The notes beneath the pieces were generated by a model. It was not told the DNA's origin. It saw only the letters and a program-made list of their open reading frames with translations, and searched no databases. A DNA stretch of 64,000 nucleotides from Pseudomonas sp. L5B5 (GTDB lineage Bacteria > Pseudomonadota > Gammaproteobacteria > Pseudomonadales > Pseudomonadaceae). Location: NCBI RefSeq assembly GCF_020520285.1, contig NZ_CP084742.1:992001-1056000 (forward strand), in the 5' to 3' direction. This document shows, piece by piece, positions 2,712 to 59,595 of the stretch (the stretch's first letter is position 1; the number at the start of each line of letters is the position of its first letter). The position numbers and the translations under genes are program-made.

Positions 2712-2747
2712 CTAAGCGACGATCCAGAGGTGCGCCCCCTTGCACAG

Positions 2748-3659
2748 CTACACATTCGCCGGGAATGTCTGCTCTTTCAGCTTCTCCATCACCAACTCGA
2801 TGAACGCCGAGACTGCCAAGGGCAAATGTTTGCGACTGGGGTAAAGCAAGTGCAGACCAAATCCAGTGCGATAGTAATGCGGGAGCACAGACACCAATCG
2901 GCCAGCCTGAAGATCGAGATTAGTTATGGTGGGCGGCAGCAACGCAATACCTAACCCAGCCAACGTAGCCTTACGCAATGCTTGAGCAGTGTTGCCATTG
3001 AAACGACTGGTAATCTGAATATCTTCCTCAACACCGTCGGGCCCCATAAGACGCCATGTGGTGAGTCCGCTGGGGTGAGCAAAACTCACGCAGTCGTGAT
3101 TGTCCAAATCCTGGAGCGTGGCAGGCACGCCGCGTTTATTGAGGTAATCAGAACTGGCGACCAACCCTTCATTGCCTGCTCCAAGCAGTTGACGACCGAC
3201 GTATCCCGAGTCCTGCAAAACGCCGCCTCGAAATGCAATGTCAATCCGTTCGGCGATCAAATCGGCCCGCGCATCGCTCAGCACGAAATCCAGCCGCACT
3301 TGTGGATGCTTGGCTAGAAAATCAGCCACCCACTCCATAGGGAAAAAGTCGAAAAAATCTGCCATCGCCGCAACGCGCACGGTGCCGCTGGGCTCCTGGC
3401 TACCTGTCATCAATTGCTGACCGGCATCGAGAAGGCCTTCTACTGCGCCAGAACACCGTTCATGAAACAGCTCCCCGGAATGGGTCAGTGTGAGTTTGCG
3501 CGTCGAGCGCTGTAGCAGCCGTGTGCCGAGCTGAGCCTCGAGTTGTTGAACTCGCCGGCTCAGGGTGTTGGACGGCATTCCAAGCTGCCGTGCCGCCTCG
3601 GCAAAGCTGCCGTTGCGCACCACATGTACAAACAAGGCGACGTCGTTCAGGTCGAGCAT
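2748..3659 (-). CDS. LysR-family transcriptional regulator of the neighbouring reductase operon
   Basis: A full-length LysR regulator of 303 residues. The N-terminal winged helix-turn-helix is clear (GSFAEAARQLGMPSNTLSRR, residues about 17-36), followed by the substrate-binding domain beginning near residue 90. It closely resembles the DmlR/PA2877 branch that often controls small redox enzymes. It is transcribed divergently from the doxX / FMN-reductase / pirin / ene-reductase operon, with a 137-bp shared intergenic region, so it probably regulates that operon and itself. The inducer is unknown; a quinone, electrophile or aromatic is inferred from the operon contents. ATG at 3659 is the first start and gives the standard length. 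Confidence 0.88.
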   Translation of the reverse strand: MLDLNDVALFVHVVRNGSFAEAARQLGMPSNTLSRRVQQLEAQLGTRLLQRSTRKLTLTHSGELFHERCSGAVEGLLDAGQQLMTGSQEPSGTVRVAAMADFFDFFPMEWVADFLAKHPQVRLDFVLSDARADLIAERIDIAFRGGVLQDSGYVGRQLLGAGNEGLVASSDYLNKRGVPATLQDLDNHDCVSFAHPSGLTTWRLMGPDGVEEDIQITSRFNGNTAQALRKATLAGLGIALLPPTITNLDLQAGRLVSVLPHYYRTGFGLHLLYPSRKHLPLAVSAFIELVMEKLKEQTFPANV

Positions 3660-14942: not shown

Positions 14943-15208
14943 CGCAATTTCGGCATAAAAAATGCCGCCTTTCGTGAACCTTCAGGACGGTGGTCACTTA
15001 CCTTTCGTGTTGATCCGTCCTGCCTCCCAAGCAACAACGTGAAGAACAAACAGCTCATTGCGTTTTTAGCCGATGCCGAAACGAAAACAACCTCTATTTA
15101 GGTACTTTAGGTTCCGAATCAATCTCTCCAATGAAAGTGCAGCTGTACGCTGCCTGGAGGACGTGCCAAATCACCGCTTCAGCGCCCAAAGACAACATTC
15201 AACCTCGG
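14943..15208. other. Spacer after ssb
   Basis: About 266 bases with a small hairpin (14953-14969) and no gene. Canonical ICEs of this class have topoisomerase III (topB) after ssb; nothing of it can be seen here. Confidence 0.4.
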
Positions 15209-15466
15209 TCAGTGCACCATCAGTGGCAACAGACCTCCCTCTAACTCGGTTAGGGGCTGTCCGACCTCTCGGGCCAAGGCAACGCCCGTCGCCATCCAGA
15301 TTTGCCCCAACTCATTGAAAGCCTGCAGGTGGGCTGGATGTTCGTTGAGCCAATGGACAAGGCTGTTGAAGTGCTCAGGATTTTCAGGGAAATCATGAAT
15401 GCTGATGAACAACTCCATTGTCCTGTCCCAAATCTCATCCGTACCGTTTTTACTCTTCTCTTCCAT
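15209..15466 (-). CDS. Small protein resembling a FecR/DUF4880 N-terminal domain
   Basis: An 85-residue protein. The segment NSLVHWLNEHPAHLQAFNELGQIWMATG (residues about 34-61) follows the pattern W-x-x-x-P-x-H-x-x-A-f-x-x-l typical of the DUF4880 domain at the N-terminus of FecR-like anti-sigma regulators. No membrane segment or FecR periplasmic domain follows, so this is a stand-alone cytoplasmic version. It diverges from the XRE gene at 15655, suggesting a two-gene regulatory pair. It is on the strand opposite to the rest of the module. Confidence 0.55.
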   Translation of the reverse strand: MEEKSKNGTDEIWDRTMELFISIHDFPENPEHFNSLVHWLNEHPAHLQAFNELGQIWMATGVALAREVGQPLTELEGGLLPLMVH

Positions 15467-15654
15467 GCGCAGCGTTTCCTCTGATTCACCTAATCAACTC
15501 ATCCATTCTCACTGACCATCCCGACCACTAAATCCCTGGGGAATCGAAGCAGCGTCGCGATGAACGGATATTTCAGTCATGATAACAACCCAAAGAGTCG
15601 ATACTCAACCTTAAAGGATGTTCATGTCAGCGAGTCTTTGCTCAACCATTCGGG

Positions 15655-16017
15655 TTGAACTGGAGAACTCAACCTTTGGCACATAGACATCCAACCCAAG
15701 TCCAAATCGGACGCATGATCGCGAAGCACCGAACCGAGCGTAATCTGACTCAGGAAGAAGTTGCGGAGCGGATGGGAATCGGCAGTGAAGCCATATCGCG
15801 ACTGGAGCGGGGTGTGGTGGAGTTGTCCGTTATCAAGCTGATGCAACTGGCGGAAATTTTCGACTGCCGAATGGACGAGCTGCTCACCGAGTCAAGCAAT
15901 CGCCCCATCGATCAAGCCAACATGATCTCCGGTCTGTTGAGTGACCTGAAGGAAAACGACCGTGCCTTTATCCTGGCCACGGTGGAGCAATTGGCCGCTC
16001 ATCTCGGCAGCAAGTAA
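15655..16017 (+). CDS. XRE-family helix-turn-helix regulator
   Basis: A Cro/CI-type regulator. The helix-turn-helix is clear: IGRMIAKHRTERNLTQEEVAERMGIG, then AISRLERGVVELSVIKLMQLAEIF. A C-terminal tail of about 40 residues (RAFILATVEQLAAHL) probably dimerises. The open frame begins at TTG 15655 (120 residues); ATG 15715 would clip the first helix, so the start is uncertain. In ICEs of this type, such XRE genes occur with a DUF4880-like partner; the targets are unknown. Confidence 0.8.
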   Translation: MNWRTQPLAHRHPTQVQIGRMIAKHRTERNLTQEEVAERMGIGSEAISRLERGVVELSVIKLMQLAEIFDCRMDELLTESSNRPIDQANMISGLLSDLKENDRAFILATVEQLAAHLGSK

Positions 16018-16570
16018 CCCTTTTTACTGCCATTTGATCCAGGGAGTGCTACGGGCTTCTTTACCTTGACGTCGCCCCGCCTTCCTTGCTGTAGTACCCT
16101 TGGATCATCGCCAACGGCGGCCCAAGACCGACTCGCTCCGGGTAGCTCGGTCGGACTCCCTGAGTTCGGAGCCCTCTCCTCTAGAGAGTTTTATTCCTAT
16201 TTGTGCTCGACCAGGTCGGGGTGGCGGATGACCCCTGTTGCCTCTAACAGGCAATAGCGGTCATCCGCTGCGGCGACCGCCTTCAGTCCCGGCGCCCACC
16301 GGGGAAACACTGGGCACCCTTTGTGCGCGGATGCGTGCCAGCAGCTTTCGATCCAGGCCACGACAAGGGTCGGTTGGTGACTCATGGCGCAGTTAAACCA
16401 AGTTTTACGAGGCACTTGTCGACTGCGTCTGACCACCAAAGGTGGCTGTTATCTTCCTCGCCTGGCTCACCGCCAGGCCCACTCTTCACTTTCTTCTGTC
16501 CACCAACTGCCATTGTATTCTGGCCATAAAAAATCGAGTTACAGCGCCTTGACGCCCCCCTGTGACGGGC
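16018..16570. other. Long gene-free region ahead of the structured leader
   Basis: About 550 bases without any convincing gene on either strand. It contains GACCGA...TCGGTC pairing near 16117-16146 and a block GCGCCCACCGGGGAAACACTGG (16293-16312, shown in part) that resembles the G/C block in front of other ICE genes here. It may be the eroded remains of a deleted gene with its leader (topB is missing from this position). Confidence 0.4.
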
Positions 16571-16725
16571 ATATACAAAGAGCATGGTTCGCTGTCGTTG
16601 ACAGCCCAGCCCAGGTAGCTTGAACCTTCAAGGCTACGCCACTTATGTGGTGGTTTACCCCAAGTACGACCAGCGTTCGGAAGCTCGTACGATTGCTGCT
16701 TCGGCGGTGATGAATGCCCCCTACT
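16571..16725 (+). ncRNA. Conserved structured leader, copy A (radC-RNA-like)
   Basis: About 155 bases match the stretch 40384-40540 with roughly three quarters identity, in blocks: GCTGT..GACAGC, GCCCAGGTAGC, AACCTT.AAGGCTACG.CACTT, AGCGTTCGG.AGCTCG.ACG and CGGTGATGAA.GCC. Predicted stems: GCTGTC/GACAGC (16591-16605) and GTAGCTTGAA/TTCAAgGCTAC (16615-16637). Differences often keep pairing (C-G in one copy, T-G in the other). It lies in the long 5' region of the STY4534 gene, with radC downstream. The name radC RNA is an inference from memory of that motif's habits. Confidence 0.6.
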
Positions 16726-16840
16726 CCAGACCTTCGGATCCATCGCAGACGCTCCTCTGCTGCGCTGCTATTCCCCAGACGCATCACGCTCATCATCACC
16801 GGCTTACCGGTGGTGAATAGTTCACTGCGCGTCTTCACCT

Positions 16841-16880
16841 TCCCCACCCTGACGGGGGCTCACCTCCCCGCCAGGGACCG
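16841..16880 (+). promoter_or_regulatory. GC-rich leader block of the STY4534 gene
   Basis: A CCCACC-n-GGGGG-n-CCCC-n-AGGG block that could fold by pairing of GGGG and CCCC, 37-76 bases before the start codon. Similar blocks precede radC (17857-17918), the gene at 40656 (40588-40627) and ardC (41049-41095). Confidence 0.45.
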
Positions 16881-16916
16881 TGCGTCACCGTTTTCCCTTG
16901 AAACAGGAGAACCACC

Positions 16917-17498
16917 ATGGCCCACGCTAACCAATCCCCAGAAGCGACCACTTACTTCAACCTGCACACCGTCGGCATCGGCTACCTCAACCGCGTTCGC
17001 GAGGTACAAGTGCGCCGCGGCCAGCCGTTCATGGCCTGTGATATCTCAGCCCTACACGGCGCTTCCAACGCCGTGGAATACACCCGCTTCGATTGCAAAG
17101 TCGCTGGGGGTGAAGCTGAACGCTTGATCCGACTCTACAAAGACGCCGTCAACGCCGAGAAAAAAGTCTTGTTGTCATTCCGTATCGGCGATCTGTGGAT
17201 CGATCCCTTTCTCTACGAGAAAGGCGATAAGCAAGGTCAGCCGGGCGCCGGCCTGAAGGGCCGTTTGCTGTTCATCGACTGGATCAAGGTCAATGGCACC
17301 TTCGAATACAAAGCGCCCGCCAGGCAGGAGGCAACAGCACCTGCTGAGCCAGCGCCCATCAGTGAGTCCTCTTCATCGTCGGCTAACACCGACGCTGAGG
17401 AGATCGAAACGCCAACACAGACTCGACTCGAGTCCGTCTCCCCACCCGTTGCAGGTACAACTTGCGGTGACGCTACACGTACCGTTCAGTCCGCCTGA
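16917..17498 (+). CDS. STY4534-family (DUF3577) ICE protein
   Basis: A 193-residue protein whose first 135 residues match the STY4534/DUF3577 family: YFNLHTVGIGYLNRVREVQ, FMACDISALHGASN, YTRFDCKVAGGEAERLI and VLLSFRIGDLWIDPF. The last 60 residues are a low-complexity Ala/Pro/Ser/Glu tail. The family is called ICE replication protein in annotations, and its fold may be OB-like; biochemistry is lacking. The start ATG 16917 has ACAGGAGAA before it. It is reached only after an 850-bp leader that contains the structured RNA, so it is probably regulated at the RNA level. Confidence 0.85.
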   Translation: MAHANQSPEATTYFNLHTVGIGYLNRVREVQVRRGQPFMACDISALHGASNAVEYTRFDCKVAGGEAERLIRLYKDAVNAEKKVLLSFRIGDLWIDPFLYEKGDKQGQPGAGLKGRLLFIDWIKVNGTFEYKAPARQEATAPAEPAPISESSSSSANTDAEEIETPTQTRLESVSPPVAGTTCGDATRTVQSA

Positions 17499-17856: not shown

Positions 17857-17918
17857 CACACCCACCCTGGGGGGACCACTCCCATCAGGGCGTGTACCCC
17901 TGATTTCCCCCATCAGAG
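17857..17918 (+). promoter_or_regulatory. GC-rich leader block of radC
   Basis: ACACCCACCCTGGGGGGACC, then CCCATCAGGG and ACCCCTGATT, with a late CCCCCATCAG. GGG and CCC runs can pair in two alternative ways (GGGGGG with CCCC/CCCCC; ATCAGGG with CCCCTGAT at 17884-17903, a perfect pair). Shares the pattern of the blocks before three other ICE genes. Confidence 0.5.
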
Positions 17919-17926
17919 GTACCACC

Positions 17927-18421
17927 ATGAGCTCCTCACACCCACAGATTGAGACCTCGGACTTCGAAGCTGATCGCATTACCCAAGAAAATGGACTGAT
18001 CGACGAAGCCCTGCATATTTTGGATCGTCGACTGTTTGCCCAAGGCCCAGACCTAACGTCACCCGACACGGTCGCTGCATATCTAAAACTGCAACTGGCA
18101 CCGCAGGAACATGAAGTGTTCGCGGTGATTTTCCTCGATGCCAAACACCGCGTCTCGGCGTTCGAAGTCCTCTTTCACGGCAGCATTGATAGCACCAGTG
18201 TTTACCCCCGCCAAGTCGTTAAACGCTCCCTGGTTCATAACGCCGCGGCCGCCATTCTTGTTCACAACCACCCTTCCGGTTGTACGGAGCCTAGCCTGGC
18301 AGATCGTGCTTTAACCGCACGGCTGAAAGACGCCTTGGCCTTGGTCGAAGTACGGGTGCTGGATCACTTCATCGTAGGCAAAGGTCGTCCGTTCTCCCTG
18401 GCCGAACATGGCTGGCTTTAA
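17927..18421 (+). CDS. radC: RadC-like JAB-domain protein
   Basis: A 164-residue JAMM/JAB protein of the mobile-element RadC type, lacking the N-terminal helix-hairpin-helix of chromosomal RadC. The metal site is complete: HNHPSG at about residues 111-116 followed by D near 124 ([12 protein letters not shown]), and an upstream Glu in [10 protein letters not shown]. RadC proteins on ICEs and prophages often travel with anti-restriction genes; the enzymatic role is unsettled. It is preceded by GC-rich leader hairpins and followed by a terminator. Confidence 0.9.
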
Positions 18422-19076: not shown

Positions 19077-20165
<1,089 letters not shown>

Positions 20166-31643: not shown

Positions 31644-32022
31644 CGTGCTCTGCTGGGTTCTGGCGGGGTGTTCCACCGACAAGGACATGCTGCTGCCCCA
31701 TGGCGAGCAAACCATGCTGGACATCTGGAACGGCGCCGGTTCGCAAGGCACTCAGCAGCAACTGCTGGAGGCTCGACAGCAGTTACGCCGCCCGTTGGCT
31801 CCAGCAGATTTCTCCGCGTCTCTCCAGGAGCCGTACACGCGCACTGCGGCGAACGAGATCCGCAACCTGTTCCCGCGCCTGCCCAATCCCGATCTGGTGC
31901 TGTACGTGTACCCACATTTGAGTGGGACAGAGCAGGCACCAGTTCCGGGTTACTCGACCGTCTTTCCGTTCTACCAACGGGTGCAGTACGCATTGCCGGG
32001 TGAACGTCAGGAAGACTTGTAG
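31606..32022 (+). CDS. TIGR03751-family conjugative-transfer lipoprotein (TraV-like)
   Basis: A 138-residue lipoprotein with lipobox VLAGC (Cys 21 or so). The family signature RLPNPDLVLYVYPHL is followed by PVPGYSTVFPFYQRVQYALPGE at the C-terminus. It overlaps TIGR03752 by 38 bases and traC by one base. Confidence 0.9.
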   Translation: MKKTMPLCLTWISVLCWVLAGCSTDKDMLLPHGEQTMLDIWNGAGSQGTQQQLLEARQQLRRPLAPADFSASLQEPYTRTAANEIRNLFPRLPNPDLVLYVYPHLSGTEQAPVPGYSTVFPFYQRVQYALPGERQEDL

Positions 32023-34775
32023 TGCGTAGCGGCGACTCGGGGAACCGCACTTCTGCATGGAAAGCCTGGCGCAACCCATCGCGTCCTCACGCCACCTTGG
32101 CCGATGAAGCTGCACTCTATGCGCACAACCCCAGCTTCACCGATCACCTGCCTTGGGTCGAGTACCTCGACACCGAGCAGTGTTTTCTGCTGGATGACAA
32201 TCGCTCGGTGGGCGCGGTGTTCGAGTTGTTGCCCATCGGTACCGAAGGGCGCGAACCCGATTGGTTGATGGCGGCCCGCGATGCACTTGAGGATGCCCTG
32301 CAGGATAGCTTTGACGAGCTGGATCAAGCGCCTTGGGTGGCGCAGTTTTTCTGCCAGGACGACAACGACTTCACCCCCTGCCTGACCCGGCTCACCGATT
32401 ATATTCAGGACAGCGCGCGAGGCACGGTCTTCACCGGAGCGTACCTGGAACTTACTCGCCGCCATCTGCAGGCCATCGCCAAGCCCGGTGGTCTGTTTGA
32501 AGATAAGGTAGTGACGCGCCTACCCTGGCGCGGTAACGACCGCCGGGTGCGCCTGGTAGTCTATCGCTGGCTTGAGTCTGACGCGGAGGAGAAGGGTCTC
32601 ACCCCCGTGCAATCCCTGCATCAGGCTGGCGAACGTATCGTGGCTTCGTTGCAAGCTTGCGGGGTGCAATCGACGCGAGTCGATGGCCGAGGTCTGTATG
32701 CCTGGTTATTGCCCTGGTTCAATCCGGCACCCACGCTCACCGATGAGGCACCCGAGGATTTCTACCGCCGCGTGGCCTACCCGGAGTGTGGCGACGGTGA
32801 GTCGCTGGCACTGCCCTTCGACCACGACTTTGCCGAGCGACTGTTCTTCAACGAACCGCGTTCAGATGTGCAGCATGGACTCTGGTTTTTTGACGATCAG
32901 CCCCATCGAGTCATGGTAGTGGACAAGCTGCGCCGAGCGCCCTTGATTGGTCAACTCACTGGCGAAACCCGCAAAGGCGACGCGGTGAATGCCCTGTTCG
33001 ACCAGTTACCCGAAGGTACGGTGATGAGTCTGACTTTAGTGGTCAAACCACAGGATGTACTCGAGGATCAGTTGAACCGCCTGACGCGCAAAGCCATCGG
33101 TGAAAACCTGGCCTCGACCCAGACCCGCCAAGATGTTGAAGAGGCTCGCGCGATCATTGGTCGCCAGCACAAGCTGTACCGCGGAACGCTGGCGTTCTAC
33201 GTGCGCGGTCACGAGGAGCAGCAACTGCACCAGCGCTCGGTCAGCCTGGCCAACGCTCTGCTGGGTGCTGGGCTGCAGCCGGTACGCGAAGGCGATGAAG
33301 TCGCCGCCTGCAACAGCTACCTACGCTGGTTGCCGATGGCTTACAACCCGGCCCGAGACATGCGCAACTGGTACACGCGCCTGATGTTCGCACAGCACCT
33401 GGCAAACCTCCTTCCGGTGTGGGGCCGCAGCACGGGCACAGGTCACCCGGGCATCACTCTGTTCAACCGCGGCGGTTCGCCATTGAGCTTCGACCCTCTG
33501 TCACGCCTGGATCGGGCCATGAACGGTCATCTGCTGTTGTTCGGCCCCACCGGTGCAGGCAAGTCGGCGACCCTGGTCACCCTGCTGATGCAGGTCATGG
33601 CGGTGTACCGCCCTCGTCTGTTTGTCGTCGAGGCCGGAAACTCCTTCGGGTTACAGGGCGACTACTTTGCGAGACAGGGCCTGTCGGTCAACAAGGTCCA
33701 ATTGAAACCTGGCGCCTCGGTCAGTCTCGCACCGTTCGCCGACGCTTGGCGCCTGGTCGAGCAGCCGGACCAGGTAGCCAGTCTGTCGATCGATGAGCTG
33801 GACGATGAGGTCGTAACCAGTCGCGAAGACCAGCGCGACATTCTCGGTGAATTGGAAATCACCGCTCGACTGATGATCACCGGCGGCGAGCCCAAGGAAG
33901 AAGCCCGCCTGAGTCGAGCCGACCGCAGCCTGATCCGCGAGTGCATCCTGGATGCGGCGCAGACCTGCGTCAATGCGGGCCGCCAGGTGCTGACTCGCGA
34001 CGTGCGCGACGCCTTGCTGCGCGTCGCCGCCGACCCGCATTTACCGGAGAAACGTCGTGAGCGCGCCCAGGAAATGGGCGAGTCCATCGACCTGTTTTGC
34101 CAGGGTTTCGAAGGGGAACTGTTCGATCGCGAAGGCACGCCTTGGCCTGAAAGCGATGTGACCATTGTCGACCTGGCCACTTATGCCCGCGAAGGCTACG
34201 AGGCACAGATGTCCATCAGCTACATCAGCCTGATGAACACTGTGAATAACATCGCCGAGCGCGATCAGTATCTGGGACGGCCGATCATCATGGTCACCGA
34301 CGAGGGCCATATCATCACCAAAAACCCTCTGCTGGCGCCATTCGTGGTCAAGGGCACGAAGATGTGGCGTAAGCTCGGCGCATGGTTCTGGCTAGCGACG
34401 CAAAACCTTGCTGACTTTCCCACGGCTGCGCAGACCATGCTCAACATGATCGAATGGTGGATTTGTTTGAACATGCCGCCCGCGGAAATCGAAGAGATCG
34501 CCCGTTTCAAAAAGCTTTCACCAGCGCAGAAAGCCTTGCTGCTCTCCGCCAGTAAGGAGCCGGGGAAATACACCGAGGGAGTGGTGCTGTCGAAAAAGCT
34601 CGAGACGCTGTTTCGAGCCGTACCGCCCAGCCTCTATCTCGCCCTGGCCATGACGGAGCCCGAGGAAAAAGCTGAGCGCTGGACACTGATGCAGGAGAAC
34701 GGCTGCTCTGAGTTGGAAGCGGCGTATCGGGTAGCTGAACGGATCGATAGAGCGCGAGGAATAGAACCCGCATAG
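32022..34775 (+). CDS. traC: TraC/VirB4-type conjugation ATPase (TIGR03744)
   Basis: A 917-residue ATPase that powers assembly of the transfer pilus. Walker A FGPTGAGKSATLV is at about residues 507-519, Walker B RPIIMVTDEGHII at about 750-762. The N-terminal region has the YLDTEQCFLLDDNRSVG signature. The start is a GTG overlapping the previous stop (32020-32022); the next ATG would cut into the conserved N-terminus. Full length. A small stem loop (34794-34809) follows. Confidence 0.92.
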   Translation: MRSGDSGNRTSAWKAWRNPSRPHATLADEAALYAHNPSFTDHLPWVEYLDTEQCFLLDDNRSVGAVFELLPIGTEGREPDWLMAARDALEDALQDSFDELDQAPWVAQFFCQDDNDFTPCLTRLTDYIQDSARGTVFTGAYLELTRRHLQAIAKPGGLFEDKVVTRLPWRGNDRRVRLVVYRWLESDAEEKGLTPVQSLHQAGERIVASLQACGVQSTRVDGRGLYAWLLPWFNPAPTLTDEAPEDFYRRVAYPECGDGESLALPFDHDFAERLFFNEPRSDVQHGLWFFDDQPHRVMVVDKLRRAPLIGQLTGETRKGDAVNALFDQLPEGTVMSLTLVVKPQDVLEDQLNRLTRKAIGENLASTQTRQDVEEARAIIGRQHKLYRGTLAFYVRGHEEQQLHQRSVSLANALLGAGLQPVREGDEVAACNSYLRWLPMAYNPARDMRNWYTRLMFAQHLANLLPVWGRSTGTGHPGITLFNRGGSPLSFDPLSRLDRAMNGHLLLFGPTGAGKSATLVTLLMQVMAVYRPRLFVVEAGNSFGLQGDYFARQGLSVNKVQLKPGASVSLAPFADAWRLVEQPDQVASLSIDELDDEVVTSREDQRDILGELEITARLMITGGEPKEEARLSRADRSLIRECILDAAQTCVNAGRQVLTRDVRDALLRVAADPHLPEKRRERAQEMGESIDLFCQGFEGELFDREGTPWPESDVTIVDLATYAREGYEAQMSISYISLMNTVNNIAERDQYLGRPIIMVTDEGHIITKNPLLAPFVVKGTKMWRKLGAWFWLATQNLADFPTAAQTMLNMIEWWICLNMPPAEIEEIARFKKLSPAQKALLLSASKEPGKYTEGVVLSKKLETLFRAVPPSLYLALAMTEPEEKAERWTLMQENGCSELEAAYRVAERIDRARGIEPA

Positions 34776-34816
34776 GGGAATCTATTCAGGCCTCTCGCTC
34801 TAAAGCGAGTGATCGG

Positions 34817-35074
34817 TTATTGCGATACGCTCCGGAGCCGCTGCTGAATCCTCAACAAGAATCCGGCTTCGAAGGCATCCTGGCAGTCACCGACAGGAAA
34901 GGTCTTGCGGGTTTGCGCCAGCTCCCACCACAGGGGAATCTCACCGGGCGTATCAAGCCAAGCCTGAGCGCATTGCACGCCACGCTCGATCATCGGGGCA
35001 AACTCGTTGCCCCAGGGTGTCAGAAGGCCCGAGCAACCATCCGCCGCCGGAATTGAAATGTAGATTTCGTCCAT
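34817..35074 (-). CDS. Small uncharacterised protein opposite to the transfer operon
   Basis: An 85-residue protein from ATG 35074 (GTG 35080 is an alternative). It reads MDEIYISIPAADGCSG, WGNEFAPMIERGVQCAQAWLD, FEAGFLLRIQQRL and shows no known motif; the even, acidic, aromatic composition looks like a real protein. It sits with the XRE gene where TIGR03757 is normally found. Function unknown. Confidence 0.5.
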   Translation of the reverse strand: MDEIYISIPAADGCSGLLTPWGNEFAPMIERGVQCAQAWLDTPGEIPLWWELAQTRKTFPVGDCQDAFEAGFLLRIQQRLRSVSQ

Positions 35075-35080
35075 ACACAC

Positions 35081-35243
35081 CCTAGATTTCTGATTTATTG
35101 TTAGACGTTGGGGCCAACTTTGACAAGCTTAACCACGCCAAATGAACGCTCGATAACAGGCATGAGCATCAAATGGCCTAGATCAATGCCAATGTAGACT
35201 ATATCCCGTGGATTGAGAGTCCCTCAAGGCGCAATTTGCGCGC
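35081..35243. promoter_or_regulatory. Divergent promoter region between the small gene and XRE gene
   Basis: 163 bp, AT-rich, between two divergent genes. A TTGACA-like TTGACAAG lies at 35119-35126; no -10 can be assigned with confidence. Confidence 0.35.
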
Positions 35244-35498
35244 ATGGCTCAAGACTACGAACACCTTCGTCTGCAACTGGCGGAAAACATCCGCTTGATG
35301 CGACGCGTGAAAAACCTTACCCAAGAGCAGCTCGCGCTCATGGCCGAGGTGGATCGCACCTACGTCAGTCAAATCGAACGATGCACGGGCAATCCGTCGC
35401 TGTTGGTCCTGTGCAAGCTCGCCAATATTCTCGAAATCACCACAGATCAGCTACTTGCAGAACCCGATACTCTGCGCAGCGCCCTTCACGTCAAATAA
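35244..35498 (+). CDS. XRE-family helix-turn-helix regulator in the transfer operon
   Basis: An 84-residue Cro/CI-type protein, essentially a lone helix-turn-helix domain: LAENIRLMRRVKNLTQEQLA, then VDRTYVSQIERCTGNPSL. Similar to small controller proteins (C proteins of restriction-modification systems), though no such system is present. It is followed 105 bp later by the TraU-like gene, so it may control the distal transfer genes. Confidence 0.83.
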   Translation: MAQDYEHLRLQLAENIRLMRRVKNLTQEQLALMAEVDRTYVSQIERCTGNPSLLVLCKLANILEITTDQLLAEPDTLRSALHVK

Positions 35499-35603
35499 TA
35501 GTCTCACGGCTCACAAATCCGATAGATCCGCCTTCATAATTTCCCCTGACAATCTTCAGTCCGTAATCGAACCTGCCCAGGCCATACACCGAGAGCCTGG
35601 ATC

Positions 35604-36560
35604 ATGCCTGTTGCCTGCTCGTCAATCTCGCCCACAAAGCTACGGCCCCTGGCGCTGAGCATCCTGCTGGCGTGCGGCCCAAGCGTGGCGCTGGACACCG
35701 TCAGCATCACGTCTTCCGTGCTTTCGCCAAACTGTCTCGACTACAGGGTCGTCGGCATTTGTTTCTGGCTCCTCTGCACGCCCTTCGGCTGCACAGTCAA
35801 AACCTCGACCAAGGTTCGTCATTTCATTCCTGAACTGGTGGTCTCGAGCTACGCCACCACCGGCAATAACCCTTGGGCCGAGATGGCTACCCTCTCCTCT
35901 CCCATCAGTGGTGCGGAAGGTGGCGGCAACCTGATCACGCCGAACACCCAGCGTGACAACCTACCCCGCTTCAAGAACGTTGATGGCATCGGCCACCCCG
36001 GAGGTTGGGCCGCCACACAACTGGCTTCGCAATCCGGCTATGCCTGCGCTAGTGTTGCAACTGCATTCATGCCTTACTACCTGAGCACCTTGGACTCACT
36101 GGCCTGGCGCCATGGCATCCCAGAAAGTCTTTACCCCGAGTCGCTCATGCCGGGGCTCCGTGAAATTGGTCGTCAGGCTTCGGGAAACATGTGGGGCAAC
36201 GTTTATCCCCGGCAGGGCTTTCTGGTACAGCCCGACGACTTCAAGGCGGCCGCCGTCATGGCGCAACGGGCCGGCGATGTGATTACCCGCAATTGGCAGC
36301 CGCATGTGTACGTACCACTGACGCCTGCCAAACGCGACGGCTACTGGCCGCCGGGCCCGACCGTTGAAAACGACACTTCGACTCACAAATGGCAATTGCT
36401 TTACCCTCAGGTGCAGCCCACGTGCGCCATCTTCCCCAGCGAACCGGTACAGAGCGCGGATGGCGGCTACGCCTGGTCGCTATGGCGCCCCTATAGCTGC
36501 TGCAAACGTGAAGGACAAACCTTCCTGTTCGCCATCGACTTCGAAGGCGGTGCTTCATGA
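35604..36560 (+). CDS. TIGR03756-family TraU-like protein
   Basis: A 318-residue exported protein with signal sequence (LALSILLACGPSVALD). Cysteine-rich N-terminal part (SPNCLDYRVVGICFWLLC) and HPGGWAATQLASQSGYACA are TraU-type signatures; SLWRPYSCCKREGQTFLFA is near the end. Disulfide-bonded TraU-like proteins act in pilus assembly or mating-pair stabilisation. Overlaps the next gene by four bases. Normally TIGR03757 (TraW-like thioredoxin) precedes it but is absent. Confidence 0.88.
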   Translation: MPVACSSISPTKLRPLALSILLACGPSVALDTVSITSSVLSPNCLDYRVVGICFWLLCTPFGCTVKTSTKVRHFIPELVVSSYATTGNNPWAEMATLSSPISGAEGGGNLITPNTQRDNLPRFKNVDGIGHPGGWAATQLASQSGYACASVATAFMPYYLSTLDSLAWRHGIPESLYPESLMPGLREIGRQASGNMWGNVYPRQGFLVQPDDFKAAAVMAQRAGDVITRNWQPHVYVPLTPAKRDGYWPPGPTVENDTSTHKWQLLYPQVQPTCAIFPSEPVQSADGGYAWSLWRPYSCCKREGQTFLFAIDFEGGAS

Positions 36561-37939
36561 ACCGGCTTCTCGCGCGACCATGGCTTGCCGTGAAGAGCCT
36601 GCTGCTCTGTGGACTGCTCGCGATGGCCACGCATGCCCACGCCGCCGAGGGCGTTTACCGCCTGGGTACTCAAGGCGAAGTACTTGACGACCGAGTCATG
36701 TACACCATTGGTGGCGGCTCGGCAGTCGGCTCACCGAGTTCGCTCTACCGACCCAGTGGTCTCGGTGTCGGCGGGTCTTGGCGAGCGAACATGATGTGCG
36801 GAAACATGAGTCTCACCAACACCCTGCAAAACCAGCTGAACGGCGCCACCGAAGGTTTCCAGCAGATCATGAGCAGCATCGTGCAGAACGCGACCCAAGC
36901 GGTAATGTCGCTGCCAGCGTTGATCATCCAGCGCGCCAATCCCGGCCTCTATGAGTTGCTGAGTAACGGCGTTATGCAGGGTCGCATCGACTTCGACCGA
37001 TCCAAGCTGACCTGCCAGGCCATGGCCGAGAAGATGGCGGACAAGGTCGGTCAAGCCGGCTGGGGCGCGCTGGCCAAGAACCAGGAGATGCAGGGCAACC
37101 TGGAGCAAACCGGTGGCGATGCGGTGGCTGCGGTGAAAAACACCGAGGCCCGCAACGGCAACAATGGCGTGTCCTGGGTCGGCGGCTCGAAGGCTGGAGG
37201 TAATGGGCAGATGCCCATACGAGTGACTTCCGACGTGGTGCGCGCGGGCTATAACCTGCTGCATAACCGTTCGGTGGATGACAGTGCCTCGATCAGTGTT
37301 AACGATTGCCTGGGTGGGGCTATTTGCCAGACCTGGGCTTCGCCCCAGGAGGAATCCGAGTGGGCCGTTCGGGTGTTGGGCGAGAGCGAAGTTACGACCT
37401 GCGACGCCTGCGAAACCCTGCGTGCTACCGCTGGCAGTGGGTTAACGCCGCTGATCCAGGAGGCCTACAGCGAACGTCTCAAGGCCCTGCAAGGGCTGTT
37501 GTCGGGCTTACTGCGGCCTACCCCTGACAACCTGGCGAAAGCCTCCAGCCCGATGCTGCCGGTGACCCGTGGCGTGATTGAAGCCCTGCGCGACGATCCT
37601 GACCAAGATCTGTTGGCACGCCGCCTGGCCAGTGAGACAGCCTTGTCCAGCGTGCTCGACAAAGCGTTGCTGCTACTGCGCACCCTGCTGGCGGGCAGTC
37701 ACGAACCGAACATCGCTTCAGCCGAGCCGGCCGAGACAGCCTTGACGAAAAATATCGACGCCCTGGAGCGCGAAATACGTCTGCTACAAACCGAGCTGCA
37801 GGTCCGGCAGATGCTCGCAACCAATACCGCCAGCCTGGTGCTCGATCGGCATGCCGGTGGTGCCGATGCTTCGCGTACCGTCGAGCAAGGCGACCCTGAG
37901 CCGGGCCGACTCAATGATGCTGACGCTAGGCGCAAGTGA
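36557..37939 (+). CDS. TIGR03755-family TraH-like protein
   Basis: A 460-residue exported protein with signal peptide (LLLCGLLAMATHAHAAE). Segments YTIGGGSAVGSPSSLY, QRANPGLYELLSNGVMQ and MAEKMADKVGQAGWGALAK are family signatures; the C-terminal third (about 370-440) is a coiled coil with EREIRLLQTELQVRQML. It resembles TraH and sits directly after the TraU-like gene. Confidence 0.88.
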   Translation: MNRLLARPWLAVKSLLLCGLLAMATHAHAAEGVYRLGTQGEVLDDRVMYTIGGGSAVGSPSSLYRPSGLGVGGSWRANMMCGNMSLTNTLQNQLNGATEGFQQIMSSIVQNATQAVMSLPALIIQRANPGLYELLSNGVMQGRIDFDRSKLTCQAMAEKMADKVGQAGWGALAKNQEMQGNLEQTGGDAVAAVKNTEARNGNNGVSWVGGSKAGGNGQMPIRVTSDVVRAGYNLLHNRSVDDSASISVNDCLGGAICQTWASPQEESEWAVRVLGESEVTTCDACETLRATAGSGLTPLIQEAYSERLKALQGLLSGLLRPTPDNLAKASSPMLPVTRGVIEALRDDPDQDLLARRLASETALSSVLDKALLLLRTLLAGSHEPNIASAEPAETALTKNIDALEREIRLLQTELQVRQMLATNTASLVLDRHAGGADASRTVEQGDPEPGRLNDADARRK

Positions 37940-37942
37940 GCC

Positions 37943-38251
37943 ATGAAACGCTCACCGCTATTCACTCTGCTTTCAGGTCTGGGGATTGCCGCGGTGATGA
38001 TCCTCACCGCCGCACTGGTCGCCTGGATCGGCCACACTGCGCTGGGTAGTTTCGAGGTCTGGCAGCAGGCAATCGAATCCGTACGACCTTATCTGCGGTG
38101 GTGGCGCGCCCTGCTCTACGCCGCCCTCTTTGCGCTCTGGTGGGATCTGCTTCGGCGCTACCGACATCGACCACAGCATCGACTGCGCGTGAAACGCATT
38201 GGAGTATTAGGGCTCGTGCTCTTTACCTGCGTCGAACTCACCCGAGTGTGA
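37943..38251 (+). CDS. Small ICE membrane protein between TraH- and TraG-like genes
   Basis: A 102-residue protein with two to three hydrophobic helices (about residues 7-29, 52-68 and 82-100) and a basic loop (RRYRHRPQHRLRVKRIG). It is a regular but unnamed member of this cluster; role unknown. Confidence 0.75.
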   Translation: MKRSPLFTLLSGLGIAAVMILTAALVAWIGHTALGSFEVWQQAIESVRPYLRWWRALLYAALFALWWDLLRRYRHRPQHRLRVKRIGVLGLVLFTCVELTRV

Positions 38252-38261
38252 GGTCACCACC

Positions 38262-39800
38262 ATGCTCATGAGCACCAACAGCTACCTGGAGTTTTACCTC
38301 TCTCTGCTGGCCTGGATCATCAACAACGGGCTCTGGAGTGCCCTGTCCGACACCGGGCTATTCGCCGCGCCCTTTGGCGCAATTATCTTGCAGGAATGGT
38401 TGTCTGCCCGTCAGCAAGGCGCGGATGAAGGCAACAAGGGACTGCTCTCGGTGCCGCGGATCGAGAACCGGTTGTGGCTGGCCTACATCGTCGTGCTATT
38501 TGGCTGCGCCCCCGTCTTTCCGTTGAGCCTCGCCTCAATGGCGTTCGATGATGCGGCGAGCCAGCGCTGCGGCGTGAGTGTCGCCAAGCCGGCGGAAACC
38601 GCCTGGGGGACCACCTTCAATACCATCGGCGAACGCTCCGCCAATGTGCCGATCTGGTGGTTTTTGGTGCATGCCTTGAGCAAAGGCGTGACCGCGGCGG
38701 CTACCGCCTCCATCCCTTGCGCACCAGATATCCGACAAATGCGCATGGAGATCGACAGTTCGCGCATCGACAGCCAGGTACTGCTGCAGGAAGTCGCCGA
38801 TTTCACTCGCGACTGCTATGGCTTTTCCCGTTCTCGGTTGTTCACCAACCGTCCGCAGTTGGATAAGGTACAGAGTCACGACGCGTCCTGGATCGGTTCA
38901 AGCTATTTTCTCGACACGCCCGGCTACTACGACACCGATCGTTCACGCACACCGCGAGTCAGTTGGCCGTATGACGACAGCCGCGATGTTTCCTTGCCGC
39001 GGCTGGAGAATGGCGCGGGCTACCCCACCTGCAAGCAGTGGTGGAGTGATAGCGGTGTTGGGTTGCGCGAGCGCTTGATCCAGCAGGTCGATCCCTCGCT
39101 GCTGACTCAGCTGAAAGGTTGGTTGACTGGTCGTTCGAGCAACGAGATCGAGGATGCCACCCTGCGTGAGCTGGTCAGTCCGCGCCAGCAATCGATGTCC
39201 ATGTCGCCTGGACAGGTGTATCAGGACTATGGCTCCAGTGCCCGAGGCGGCTCGATCAATCAGGGGCTCAATAACCTGGCCACCAATACCGGGTTGGCCC
39301 TCGGCTCCTTCAGCAACTTCCCGGCGATGAATGCGCTACGCGCTGCCCTGCCCATGGTGCAGGCCTTCCTGATCATGGGCGTCATCATCAGCTTGCCGCT
39401 GATTCTGTTGGTGAGTACCTATCAGCTGAAGACCGTCATGACCGTGACGTTTGCGCTGTTCACGCTGCACATGTTGAGCTTCTGGTGGGAACTGGCTCGT
39501 TGGGTCGACTCCAGCATGCTCGATACCTTGTACAACCAGGTCTCGGCGTCCAATCAAGTGCTGTTATCGCTGCCCACATCCGGGTTTATGGATGGGACTG
39601 TCACCGCGCAGGTGATCGAGTATGTGATGGGGGCGATGTTCTTGGTGCTGCCTGGACTGTTTTTGGTCGCCATGAGCTGGGCTGGCTACTCAATCGGCAA
39701 CAGCCTTGAGGGGATGCTAGGTGGTGCAAGCAAAGCCGCGCATGGTGCCGCGGGCAAAGGAACGGATCAGTTGATTGGTGCTACGAAGAAGCTTACCTGA
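38262..39800 (+). CDS. traG: TraG-like mating-pair stabilisation membrane protein
   Basis: A 512-residue TraG N-terminal-type protein. N-terminal YLEFYLSLLAWIINNGLW and TGLFAAPFGAIILQEW, a membrane pair at about 60-85, a long periplasmic part with several Cys, and C-terminal helices (about 360-410 and 450-480). It is shorter than F-plasmid TraG and lacks the large C-terminal entry-exclusion region, as usual in ICEs. Its stop overlaps the stop of the convergent DUF3742 gene by eight bases. Confidence 0.88.
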   Translation: MLMSTNSYLEFYLSLLAWIINNGLWSALSDTGLFAAPFGAIILQEWLSARQQGADEGNKGLLSVPRIENRLWLAYIVVLFGCAPVFPLSLASMAFDDAASQRCGVSVAKPAETAWGTTFNTIGERSANVPIWWFLVHALSKGVTAAATASIPCAPDIRQMRMEIDSSRIDSQVLLQEVADFTRDCYGFSRSRLFTNRPQLDKVQSHDASWIGSSYFLDTPGYYDTDRSRTPRVSWPYDDSRDVSLPRLENGAGYPTCKQWWSDSGVGLRERLIQQVDPSLLTQLKGWLTGRSSNEIEDATLRELVSPRQQSMSMSPGQVYQDYGSSARGGSINQGLNNLATNTGLALGSFSNFPAMNALRAALPMVQAFLIMGVIISLPLILLVSTYQLKTVMTVTFALFTLHMLSFWWELARWVDSSMLDTLYNQVSASNQVLLSLPTSGFMDGTVTAQVIEYVMGAMFLVLPGLFLVAMSWAGYSIGNSLEGMLGGASKAAHGAAGKGTDQLIGATKKLT

Positions 39801-40200: not shown

Positions 40201-40383
40201 GGTCTCGCCCTCTGCTGAGCGTTTTCATGGTTGAGACAGGAGTAACAGCCTACTACTGAAAACGGTCCGTACCTGACCGTTTATCAGTTTGCCCAGCCGA
40301 AAAATCTTGACTGGAAGACAGAAGACAAGCCCCGTGAAACAGCGTCTCTTTGGAGGTTGACCCGTATAAATCGTCCGGCTAAA
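40201..40383. other. Start of a 455-bp gene-free leader region
   Basis: Contains the DUF3742 promoter region and no gene. The rest of the region (40384-40655) holds the structured leader and a GC-rich block listed separately. Confidence 0.35.
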
Positions 40384-40540
40384 TACAAGGTACGGATCGC
40401 TGTTATCGACAGCACCCCGCCCAGGTAGCCAGAACCTTAAAGGCTACGTCACTTCGATGATGGTTCTCCCCTAGTGCGATTAGCGTTCGGTAGCTCGCAC
40501 GGTGACCGTTTCTACGGTGATGAACGCCTACTGCACTCCT
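40384..40540 (+). ncRNA. Conserved structured leader, copy B (radC-RNA-like)
   Basis: The second copy of the leader at 16571-16725. Stems seen: GCTGT/ACAGC (40399-40413), GTAGCC/GGCTAC (40425-40447), plus conserved AGCGTTCGG, AGCTCG and CGGTGATGAA blocks at about 40482-40525. It precedes the small gene at 40656 and the ArdC-like anti-restriction gene. The naming as radC RNA is inferred from resemblance and from this gene context. Confidence 0.6.
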
Positions 40541-40587
40541 GAGCGCCTTTCGAGCTCTGCTCGTCAGGGAAATCCTCTTGATTTTCT

Positions 40588-40627
40588 TCAACCCACTGCG
40601 GGGAAATCTTTTCCCCCACGGGACAGG
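40588..40627 (+). promoter_or_regulatory. GC-rich leader block of the gene at 40656
   Basis: ACCCACTGCGGGGAAATC followed by TTTTCCCCCACGGG; GGGG pairs with CCCC. Same layout as the blocks upstream of STY4534, radC and ardC. Confidence 0.45.
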
Positions 40628-40655
40628 TTTCTTCACGTTTCAACGGAGACATACC

Positions 40656-40985
40656 ATGCCCGACACACTTACACCGGAAACACTGAACACCCTTCGGTTG
40701 CCCATCGTGTTCACCCCTGGCGCGTGGCAACGCGCAGTACTGCTCGAGCAATCCGATCACGCTGAGAAGCTGCAGGTCGATCGGTTGAGCCACGTACTGC
40801 GCGCAGCCTTCGAAGCCCATCTGGCCTATCCAAACAAGCCCTACGTGCTGTTCGAGATAATCCACATTGAACCAACCGATCACTTAGACCACGACCCGTT
40901 GCTGCAATTGAGTCTGAGCCTACTCCAAGAGCCGGGTCAGCCTGGCGCCTTGCTGATAGCGCTTGCAGGAGACCACAAGCGCTAA
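40656..40985 (+). CDS. Uncharacterised small ICE protein upstream of ardC
   Basis: A 109-residue protein from ATG 40656, preceded by AACGGAGAC. The text VFTPGAWQRAVLLEQSDHAEKLQVDRLSHVL, quoted here only in part as WQRAVLLEQSDHAEKL, has no motif I recognise; the acidic C-terminal half (DHLDHDPLLQLSLSLLQE) is Leu- and Asp-rich. Acidic small proteins in ICE leading regions can be DNA-mimic anti-defence proteins, but this is speculation. It has the structured leader in front and ardC behind, so all three may be one early-expressed unit. Confidence 0.6.
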   Translation: MPDTLTPETLNTLRLPIVFTPGAWQRAVLLEQSDHAEKLQVDRLSHVLRAAFEAHLAYPNKPYVLFEIIHIEPTDHLDHDPLLQLSLSLLQEPGQPGALLIALAGDHKR

Positions 40986-41048
40986 GCGCAATTGGCGGCG
41001 CCCACCTCCACACTCGGACGGCATGCAAGACCTGCATCAATCCAGCAC

Positions 41049-41095
41049 ATCACCCAATCGGGGAACCCTCCCCGACGGGCACGGCGTTCCTCCGT
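41049..41095 (+). promoter_or_regulatory. GC-rich leader block of ardC
   Basis: ACATCACCCAATCGGGGAAC then CCTCCCCGACGGGC; GGGGA pairs with TCCCC (41059-41073). Fourth instance of the layout. Confidence 0.45.
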
Positions 41096-41116
41096 TTTTC
41101 TCTCGAGGAAATAGCC

Positions 41117-42079
41117 ATGCGCGATATCTACCAAGACGTGACTGACAAGATCGTTACCGCATTAGACCAAGGCGTTGCTCCCTGGATCAAACCCTGGTCC
41201 TCAAGTGGCTCAGCTGACGTCGGTCATCATCACCCCTACCCCATCAACGCCATCACGCGGCGTCCCTATTCTGGGATCAATTTACCGTTGCTCTGGGCCG
41301 AGGCCAGGTTGCAGGGGTTTACTCAAGATCATTGGCTGACTTTCAATCAAGCCAAAAAGGCTGGCGGGCACATCCGTAAGGGTGAGCACAGCACACTGGC
41401 GGTGCTCTACAAGCCGATGGAGCGCGAGGAACAGACCGAGTTAGGCCAACCCGTACTCGATGAAAACGGTCAGCCCAAGGTCACTCACTTCGGCATTCTC
41501 AGGACACATTTTCTGTTCAACATCGAGCAAACGGAGGGGCTCGAAATGCTCAATGAAACCCTGTTCGAGACGGAACAGAGTGATCCCTTCCAGCCCAACA
41601 GCGCCGCGGAAAATTTGCTGTTAAGTTCAGGTGCACACATCGTTCATCGGCCGACCGACGAAGCCTTTTACCACCCGATCAGGGATCTCATCCAACTGCC
41701 GACAAAAGCACAATTTCATGAGGAAGGCGGGTACTACGCCACCGCACTTCATGAGCTGACGCACTGGACCGGGCATCACGCTCGGTTACAGCGCGAAGGC
41801 GTGACGTCAGCCTGTCCGTACGGATCACCAGGCTACGCGTTTGAAGAGTTGATCGCCGAAATGGGCGCTGCGTTTTTATGTGCCTACACCGGCATACCGG
41901 GAGAGCTCCGGCACGAGGGCTACATCGACTCCTGGCTCGGCCTGCTCAAGGCTGACAAACGTGCGATCTTCCGCGCAAGTGGTCACGCCCGCAGCGCCTC
42001 GGAGTATGTACTCAACCTGGAGCAGCAACTGAAGCAAGCGGTCTTGGATGACTCGCCTTGCATGAACGATGGAGCTTAA
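41117..42079 (+). CDS. ardC: ArdC-like anti-restriction protein with zincin domain
   Basis: A 320-residue protein: ArdC-type N-terminal ssDNA-binding domain (residues about 1-140; YQDVTDKIVTALDQGVAPWIKPW, NAITRRPYSGINLPLLW, FNQAKKAGGHIRKGE), then a polyvalent metallopeptidase domain with HELTHWTGH (about 212-220) and the third ligand region EELIAEMGAAF. ArdC of IncW plasmids protects entering DNA from restriction. The gene lies close to the relaxase, where early-entry genes are expected. ATG 41117 has CGAGGAA upstream. Confidence 0.88.
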   Translation: MRDIYQDVTDKIVTALDQGVAPWIKPWSSSGSADVGHHHPYPINAITRRPYSGINLPLLWAEARLQGFTQDHWLTFNQAKKAGGHIRKGEHSTLAVLYKPMEREEQTELGQPVLDENGQPKVTHFGILRTHFLFNIEQTEGLEMLNETLFETEQSDPFQPNSAAENLLLSSGAHIVHRPTDEAFYHPIRDLIQLPTKAQFHEEGGYYATALHELTHWTGHHARLQREGVTSACPYGSPGYAFEELIAEMGAAFLCAYTGIPGELRHEGYIDSWLGLLKADKRAIFRASGHARSASEYVLNLEQQLKQAVLDDSPCMNDGA

Positions 42080-56567: not shown

Positions 56568-57579
56568 TGGAACTGACCCAATTCGATTCGTTGTTACACC
56601 GCTTCGCTCACCGTTCGCAGGCCATCGAACGCGACGCTTCGCTAATAGAACTGATGCAGGCCTTGCAGGGCGAACGGCTCGACGTACTCCCGTCGCCCGG
56701 CCAGGGCTGCACCATGGAGCGATAGCGGGCCTTGGCGCGAGTCGCCGGTTGCGATCTCAGCCTGGCCAAACTTTATGAAGGCCATACCGACGCCTTGGCA
56801 ATCCTCGCAGAATGCGGTGCCGCCCAGCAGGCCGGCAACGGCATCTGGGGCGTGTGGGCCGCCGAGCCGCCGGATGCCCGTGCCTATATCGTCGAGCGGC
56901 GAGGTGAACGCGTACGCCTGCAAGGCCTGGTGCTCGGGCGCGCTGCAGATCGACCATGCCCTGCTGACCGCCTGGGAGGGCGACCAGCCTCAACTGGTGG
57001 TCATCGAACTGCATCACCCCAGCCAGCGCATCCTGGCCGAACACTGGCAGGCCGTGGGCATGGCCGCCACCAGCAGTGTCGTCATCGAATTCGGATACTC
57101 GCCAGGGCTGGCCATCGGTTCGCCCGGCCAGTACCTGTCCCGGCCTGGCTTCTGGCAAGGCGGCGCGAGTATCGCCGCTTGCTGGTATGGCGCCGCCGAG
57201 GCCCTGGCGGACCACCTTCGCGAACAGTGCCGCAAACCCCGGCGCGACCCGCATGCCGATGCGCATCTGGGCGCAGTCAATGCGGCCTTGTACGTTGCCC
57301 GTGCCACCCTGCGCGAATGCGCCACGTGGATCGACCTCCACCCTCAGGATGACGCAAGCTTAGAGGTGCGACGCACCCGCGCCCAGGTCGAGCGGGCGGT
57401 CGAGCAGGTCATCCAGCATGTGGGCCGGGCGCTGGGCGCCGCACCGTTCTGTCGCAGCAGCCATTTCGCAAGGCTCAGTGCCGACCTGCCGGCGTACCTG
57501 CGCCAGAGCCACGCGAGCGCGACCTGGACGAGTTGGGCCGACAACTGACCGGCTTGCCGACGGGAGCATGGCAACTATG
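56564..57579 (+). pseudogene. Acyl-CoA-dehydrogenase-like gene, broken
   Basis: From ATG 56564 or 56567 the frame reads ELTQFDSLLHRFAHRSQ and stops at TAG 56723-56725, resumes with CDLSLAKLYEGHTDALAIL, shifts frame near 56930 to KAWCSGALQIDHALLTAW and SPGQYLSRPGFWQGGASIAACW, and shifts again near 57515 to reach ERDLDELGRQLTGL before ending at TGA 57577-57579. The rebuilt protein (about 335 residues) looks like the short acyl-CoA-dehydrogenase-like protein found with PIG-L, methyltransferase and glycosyltransferase genes next to ligD in P. putida-type genomes. Three lesions make it non-functional. Confidence 0.8.
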
Positions 57580-59594: not shown

Positions 59595-59595
59595 C

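Follow-up and report, generated by a model that had tools for sequence, protein, structure and literature searches.

A radC RNA copy as a candidate 5′ leader in a Pseudomonas integrative conjugative element, with a conserved structured element upstream

radC RNAs lie upstream of genes for DNA-handling proteins. The motif was described in 2010 (Weinberg; excerpts of PMC2864571), and no functional report on it from after 2010 was found in the literature searched. The authors of another motif in the same excerpts, STAXI, discuss a role in single-stranded DNA. ICEclc has two transfer origins, oriT1 and oriT2 (excerpts of PMC6561031), and its transcripts have been mapped (excerpts of PMC2892462); the word radC was not found in PMC2892462.

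The window analyzed here is the whole 64-kb stretch of DNA from Pseudomonas sp. L5B5. An Rfam scan of the window at gathering scores returned two matches to radC RNA (RF01754) and nothing beyond them. Copy A was matched at 16574-16717 on the plus strand (86.8 bits, E 8e-15) and copy B at 40383-40527 on the plus strand (83.4 bits, E 5e-14), the gathering score being 40; a third copy lies elsewhere in the L5B5 genome (64 bits). A first-pass annotation had proposed a structured leader at 16571-16725 that resembled the radC RNA motif, with a second copy in the same integrative conjugative element (ICE). The resemblance proved to be a strong family match in both intervals, and copy A had been located to within 8 bases. 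The shared blocks that the annotation named were found at their places in both copies, and both matches lie inside one element. The copies and the genes near them are as follows, R1 being the covariance model built in this analysis for radC RNA.

16573 to 16717, plus strand: radC RNA copy A, double pseudoknot (RF01754 86.8 bits; R1 121 bits; pair counts)
16917 to 17498, plus strand: STY4534-family gene (PF12101, DUF3577; Pfam 7.7e-50)
17927 to 18421, plus strand: RadC-like JAB gene (Pfam 3.7e-43)
40381 to 40527, plus strand: radC RNA copy B (RF01754 83.4 bits; R1 114.5 bits)
40656 to 40985, plus strand: 109-aa ORF led by copy B, no Pfam match (its cluster stands downstream of 16 of 147 copies)
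41117 to 42079, plus strand: ardC anti-restriction gene (ArdcN 2.4e-34)

In gene context, copy A precedes the STY4534 gene, with the RadC-family gene after it, and copy B precedes a small ORF followed by ardC. Around the copies, Pfam identified genes for AcaB (13199), SSB (14394), STY4534/DUF3577 (16917), RadC (17927), an IS110 transposase (19224), a coupling protein (23430), TraC/TraU/TraG_N proteins of a T4SS (32022-39800), ArdC (41117), and a TraI_2 relaxase (42633). These surrounding genes indicate that the element is an ICE. The IS110-family transposase gene (19224-20165, plus strand) lies inside the element, after the RadC gene and ahead of the T4SS genes, and LigD and Ku genes of non-homologous end joining occupy 54099-60432, beyond the relaxase gene. 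A search of 15000-17000 for tRNA and tmRNA found none.

Copies A and B are identical at 108 of 146 alignment columns, and of the 47 consensus pairs with letters in both, 44 are formed in copy A and 43 in copy B. Of the changes between them that affect pairs, 11 of 17 changed pairs stay paired in both copies (three by two-sided change, eight by one-sided change through G-U), and the other six do not. Our alignment A1 contains 37 copies from 48 loci (L001-L049, with L004 kept apart), after the exclusion of an exact duplicate, of nine copies nearly identical to others, and of L038, whose copy is aberrant. Eight helices were named on these 37 copies, and two of them cross others (one joins the P2 loop to the stretch behind P3, the other is P5, which crosses P6), giving a double pseudoknot. 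Covariation among homologs, which the annotation had proposed as a check, was found in all eight helices, including the two crossing ones: 94.4% of 1722 cells are paired, 36 of 48 pairs are changed on both sides, and 0 of 500 shuffles reached any of the five pairing measures. The weakest helix is P1a (79.4% paired), and pairing falls to 24–47% when the partner is slid by 1–3 columns. GU combinations outnumber AC combinations on the message strand in this alignment (134 vs. 17), which indicates that the structure was selected on that strand. Besides its length and two pseudoknots, radC RNA has many conserved unpaired bases. The RF01754 model as printed leaves the segments of the two crossing helices unpaired; these helices may not be new, since CaCoFold already lists radC among the families whose database structure lacks some covarying pairs (excerpts of PMC7657543).

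The annotation had also considered that the conserved blocks might encode a peptide. Among 19 close relatives, each reading frame is open throughout in 8 at most, so the blocks do not look like conserved peptide, and in 18 of the 19 the lengths differ by a non-multiple of three (mostly one shared base). By the scores of both copies above the gathering score, the covariation of the consensus helices, and the position upstream of DNA-handling genes (STY4534, RadC, and ArdC nearby), copy A is, as judged from its sequence, a genuine copy of the known, functionally unexplained radC RNA family, which Rfam annotates as cis-regulatory.

radC RNA was found in 97 of 293 relatives, with up to ten matches per genome, in 2 of 369 genomes of a class sample, and in 6 of 398 genomes of a phylum sample, the window's own genome being included in both samples. 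R1 reported 145 copies on 100 fetched loci. A pattern search of viral contigs gave four stretches, in one of which (L092) R1 finds radC RNA; loci L050-L090 are chance pattern matches and are excluded from all counts. A PF12101 match is present in 42 of the 97 radC-positive genomes and absent from the other 55, which rules out STY4534 as an obligatory partner of radC RNA. Among 49 STY4534 genomes, seven had no radC match, and in the loci of these seven R1 finds a single weak copy (30 bits); radC RNA is therefore dispensable outside the genus, which counts against the explanation of the RNA as a cis leader.

Up to five radC copies occur in one element, before different genes. When nine divergent elements were compared, copies heading different genes within the same element were 0.602 alike (22 pairs) vs. 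0.521 for copies of different elements (222 pairs), and 0 of 1000 label shuffles reached the within-element value; at matched GC, the values were 0.616 (9 pairs) and 0.537 (54 pairs). In closely related elements (protein identity at least 75%), copies before the same gene were always more alike, the within-element likeness being higher in 0 of 94 pairs. Duplication ancestry and adaptation to a shared partner both explain the within-element likeness. The likeness speaks for the cis-leader explanation, and its possible origin by duplication against it. A Stutzerimonas plasmid (L004, NZ_CP091175), typed as non-mobilizable, carries three radC RNAs and the upstream core described below within approximately 6 kb.

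Promoters are predicted at the 5′ edges of copies A and B.

16549 to 16577, plus strand: predicted sigma70-like promoter of copy A, TTGACG (16549-16554), 17-base spacer, TATACA (16572-16577)
40357 to 40385, plus strand: predicted promoter of copy B, TTGACC, 17 bases, TAAATA (from sequence and consensus)

From the former, transcription of copy A would be expected to start near 16584. In total, 151 copies were collected and one exact duplicate was removed; 93 of the 150 upstream regions were kept after an 80% identity filter. In these 93 non-redundant copies, the first base of the model is A in 83%, and a TTGAC block stands at -24 to -20. Phased TTGAC with at most one mismatch occurs in 58 of the 93 copies vs. 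5 of 93 in an equal-size scan 30 bases further up. This phasing makes the first bases of the model the -10 box, so the transcript of promoter-bearing copies should begin at stem P1. The TTGAC-like box is scarce in the class before RadC genes (1 of 8) and absent from the class termed C6 (0 of 5), which counts against the explanation of the RNA as a cis leader.

Two hairpins, H1 and H2, stand between the RNA and the gene, and the second pairs the Shine-Dalgarno (SD) sequence. Similar pairs were found at other starts in the element.

16847 to 16876, plus strand: H1 hairpin of the STY4534 leader (fold; own vs. swapped strands over 63 leaders, 0/2000)
16879 to 16913, plus strand: H2 hairpin pairing the STY4534 SD (fold, z-score -2.2 for the whole leader end; strand swap 0/2000)
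17865 to 17925, plus strand: H1-H2 pair of the RadC-family gene, not directly preceded by radC RNA (noisy fold scan)
40592 to 40655, plus strand: H1 (40592-40622) and H2 with the SD (40626-40655) of the copy B ORF (fold; missed by a stricter scan)
41053 to 41116, plus strand: H1-H2 pair before ardC, no radC RNA between (fold and noisy scan)

In most class I copies, H1 typically reads CGGGGA...CCCCG, and the 3′ strand of H2 is the SD. Filtering by start score, distance, and 80% identity left a non-redundant set of 68 leaders. In these, upstream bases pair the SD with a mean probability of 0.91 (above 0.5 in 66 of 68), compared with 0.61 for 403 further genes from these loci (p 7e-20), some of which carry the H1-H2 module themselves. 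In the minimum-energy fold of 63 of the 68 leaders, one hairpin extends to the SD and a further one precedes it, and over these 63, the strands of H1 and of H2 fit their own partners better than swapped partners (0 of 2000 each). RNAalifold on a MAFFT alignment of 44 H1-H2 leaders (A3) gave no consensus pair; per-sequence folds and strand swaps were used because of this and because hairpin lengths vary. The 5′ strand of H1 also fits its own anti-SD strand better than swapped ones (0 of 2000), and this modeled pairing might be an opening switch. We hold this idea lightly, since one of three control pairings, that of the H1 5′ strand with the SD strand, also reaches 5 of 2000 (the other two, 1937 and 1752).

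A fold scan of the window reported H1-H2 at 13 of 113 starts vs. 8 of 113 shuffled starts and missed the copy B leader; as this barely exceeds the shuffles, H1-H2 in the window rests on the few pairs that fit the consensus. The buried-SD pairs before the RadC gene (17865-17925) and ardC (41053-41116) possibly form a leader family of their own. Rfam at E<=1 gave nothing but radC in 15900-17000 and 40300-41200. In none of 28 segment tests did pairing of the radC domain with H1 or H2 reach 0/300 (best 3/300). This counts against the cis-leader explanation, in which the radC domain would act on H2.

A start was assigned to 147 copies, close relatives counted, and 3 of 150 had none. The largest downstream clusters are STY4534 (44 copies), the family of the copy B ORF (16), C3 (14), RadC (11), C5 (10), and C6 (8); the members tried of the three families with 14, 10, and 8 copies gave no Pfam match. 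The distance from the RNA to the start codon, as given by the automatic finder for the 147 copies with class II included, has a median of 95 nt. A second architecture, class II, comprises 25 copies in 24 loci, in which approximately 500 nt of conserved noncoding sequence follow the RNA with no close gene. The third copy of the L5B5 genome belongs to it. Upstream, likeness to one member (L177) runs through a tyrosine integrase gene in 11 of 25; downstream, the members read have an integrase-like or DUF3987 gene, L177 itself being an exception. Rfam gave nothing but radC in the noncoding stretch. In L177, the class II stretch lies at 2747-3400. A 16-bp hairpin is present in the consensus of 22 aligned class II copies, and the predicted pairs of these 22 include 297 GU and 92 AC. 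Having no gene close after the RNA, class II counts against the cis-leader explanation.

The stretch before copy A (16057-16570) is also kept in relatives. A candidate structured RNA gene or oriT-like element lies in this region at 16066-16480 on the plus strand, upstream of the first radC RNA.

16066 to 16095, plus strand: candidate promoter, TTGACG, 18 bases, TGTAGT (by eye in the window, L207, and L180)
16121 to 16172, plus strand: another radC match, limited to the 3′ pseudoknot domain (R1 16.6 bits, model 93-151)
16214 to 16278, plus strand: long hairpin 5′ of the core (folds in 22/22 sequences examined)
16288 to 16373, plus strand: core with its own pseudoknot (our model R2, 103.9 bits; no Rfam match)

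The core lies approximately 290 bp upstream of copy A. For the whole element, Rfam at E<=1 gave none besides radC and sub-threshold MIR398 and sR47. The R1 E-values of 16121-16172 are rough, at 0.014 and, with filters off, 0.006, and the domain is kept in 22 aligned relatives. The core was found in 48 of 119 loci searched (many of those without it are class II, cut, or unrelated, and L165 and L205 overlap), with one match per locus, on the same strand as the nearest radC RNA; it stands 215–300 bp before the RNA in 38 and further off or otherwise in 10. In 22 non-redundant sequences, 98.5% of 462 cells are paired and 8 of 21 pairs are changed on both sides. Shuffles reached these values in 0 of 500 cases for pairing and two-sided change and in 12 of 500 for pair types, and 440 cells include 57 GU and 1 AC.

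In ten aligned loci the element has a longer form, with a 5′ domain that is conserved and a candidate promoter resembling TTGCAT/CATAAT. The predicted consensus in nine of these loci gives GU 141 and AC 18 on the plus strand vs. 72 and 46 on the minus strand. A radC-like pseudoknot was seen in this 5′ domain by eye, where R1 reports none at E<=0.01, and terminator-like hairpins were seen by eye in L207 and L180. R2 reports the core from 40 of 293 relatives, and STY4534 is present in 39 of these 40; in one genome (G016), a further, weak copy (35 bits) lies close to the first. Among 339 phylum genomes, 4 have the core, all already in the first set. A genome of another family (G277) has the element (59 bits), a weak radC RNA (30 bits), and STY4534 in the same order. 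The upstream element is thus a candidate RNA gene, transfer origin, or both. We favor the RNA reading because of the wobble asymmetry, the candidate promoter, and the terminator-like hairpins. The excerpts of PMC9960961, PMC10732049, and PMC13413775 contain no oriT sequence.

On balance, we lean with modest confidence towards copy A as a 5′-terminal cis leader that controls the translation of ICE establishment genes, with a shared trans factor being probable. The annotation had proposed a trans- or cis-acting regulatory RNA, which appears right in outline, and the cis leader fits the sequence data better than a trans-acting small RNA, since TTGAC is phased in 58 of 93 copies, the SD hairpin occurs in 63 of 68 leaders, and up to five copies precede different genes. 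In this reading, the STY4534 message of the ICE would begin with copy A as its structured 5′ end. The sequences show a compact double pseudoknot selected on the message strand, with the -10 box of a predicted promoter overlapping its 5′ edge in most non-redundant copies. A separate two-hairpin module follows just before the gene, its second hairpin pairing the SD, and the same cassette is repeated within one element before different genes. We infer that the message would be translationally shut by default. The radC domain would be where a trans factor binds; this factor, probably a protein, would set the translation or stability of all cassette messages together during transfer or establishment. 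It would belong to the host or be otherwise widely available, because many radC RNA genomes lack STY4534.

A wider reading would join the radC leaders and the upstream element into one RNA control system of ICEs, in which a structured noncoding RNA acts in trans and thereby opens the establishment genes jointly once the element has been transferred. This RNA might, for example, titrate or deliver the factor bound by the radC leaders. At approximately 300–600 nt, it would be unmatched in Rfam 15, have a promoter and a pseudoknot of its own, and carry a pseudoknot of the radC type in its 5′ portion. We regard this system, taken as a whole, as doubtful.

Other explanations were weighed against the cis leader. 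The knotted end might be a passive 5′ stabilizer that shields the message from RNase E/RppH, with H2 unrelated and constitutive. This would agree with the expected start of the RNA at the first stem in promoter-bearing copies and with the missing pairing link between the radC domain and H1/H2; however, the length, the conserved unpaired bases, and the two pseudoknots exceed the needs of a shield, and the copies of one element resemble each other. We consider it unlikely. Decidedly unlikely is a trans-acting small RNA that would be processed out of the leader to act elsewhere. Against it, a start codon with a paired SD comes after most copies, at the median of 95 nt over 147 copies with class II included; in its favor, the class II copies have no ORF close behind them and the radC 3′ domain occurs alone inside another candidate transcript.

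The conserved loops of a pseudoknotted domain before an SD-sequestering hairpin recall a small-molecule riboswitch with H1/H2 as its expression platform, and the fit of the H1 5′ strand to its own anti-SD strand (0/2000) would suit one. We nevertheless find a riboswitch very unlikely, given that the spacing to the start varies from 23 to 408 nt (automatic finder, with misassigned and class II starts included), that no pairing coupling was found, that ardC and the RadC gene are preceded by H1-H2 but have no radC RNA there, and that the control pairing of the H1 5′ strand with the SD strand likewise outperforms most shuffles (5/2000). Direct pairing of an aptamer with the platform was rejected on the segment tests (0/28 at 0/300, best 3/300). 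Frpo promoters work on the template strand, which is the transferred one. A single-stranded DNA element of the leading region, either an Frpo-like promoter or a replication start, might act on the entering strand here, and the clustering beside single-stranded DNA, anti-restriction, and RadC genes and the structured element upstream are consistent with it. Such an element is highly improbable, since the pairs tolerate GU, but not its complement, on the sense strand (GU 134, AC 17) and an ordinary double-strand promoter is predicted. The same sense-strand count disfavors an Frpo-like single-stranded DNA promoter in particular, for which selection on the template strand would be expected.

Copy A is new only as a member of its family; what is new is the anatomy and the neighboring element. 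The anatomy, with its start at the first stem, double pseudoknot, SD-burying module, and repeated cassettes, turns "function unknown" into testable reporter questions. If the proposed control is true, it would place a group of ICE establishment genes, among them anti-restriction, under post-transcriptional control. The upstream element has a conserved nucleic-acid structure without an Rfam match and merits its own description, be it an RNA gene or a transfer origin.

Copies A and B share sequence, structure, and DNA-handling neighborhood with the radC RNA motif; the promoter overlap and the SD module seen here are absent from its description in the excerpts of PMC2864571. The STAXI motif in these excerpts is, like radC RNA, a pseudoknot RNA near single-stranded-DNA-binding, integrase, and anti-restriction genes. 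In contrast to radC RNA, STAXI consists of 2-3 tandem pseudoknots, and its covariance model had no match at the gathering score in the 64-kb window. ICEclc resembles the element here in being an ICE with a T4SS, SSB, and a topoisomerase gene (excerpts of PMC2892462). Like the Frpo promoters of plasmid leading regions, the radC copies are like-oriented and stand before establishment and anti-defense genes; unlike Frpo, radC RNA carries the signature of a sense-strand RNA and is predicted to have an ordinary double-strand promoter.
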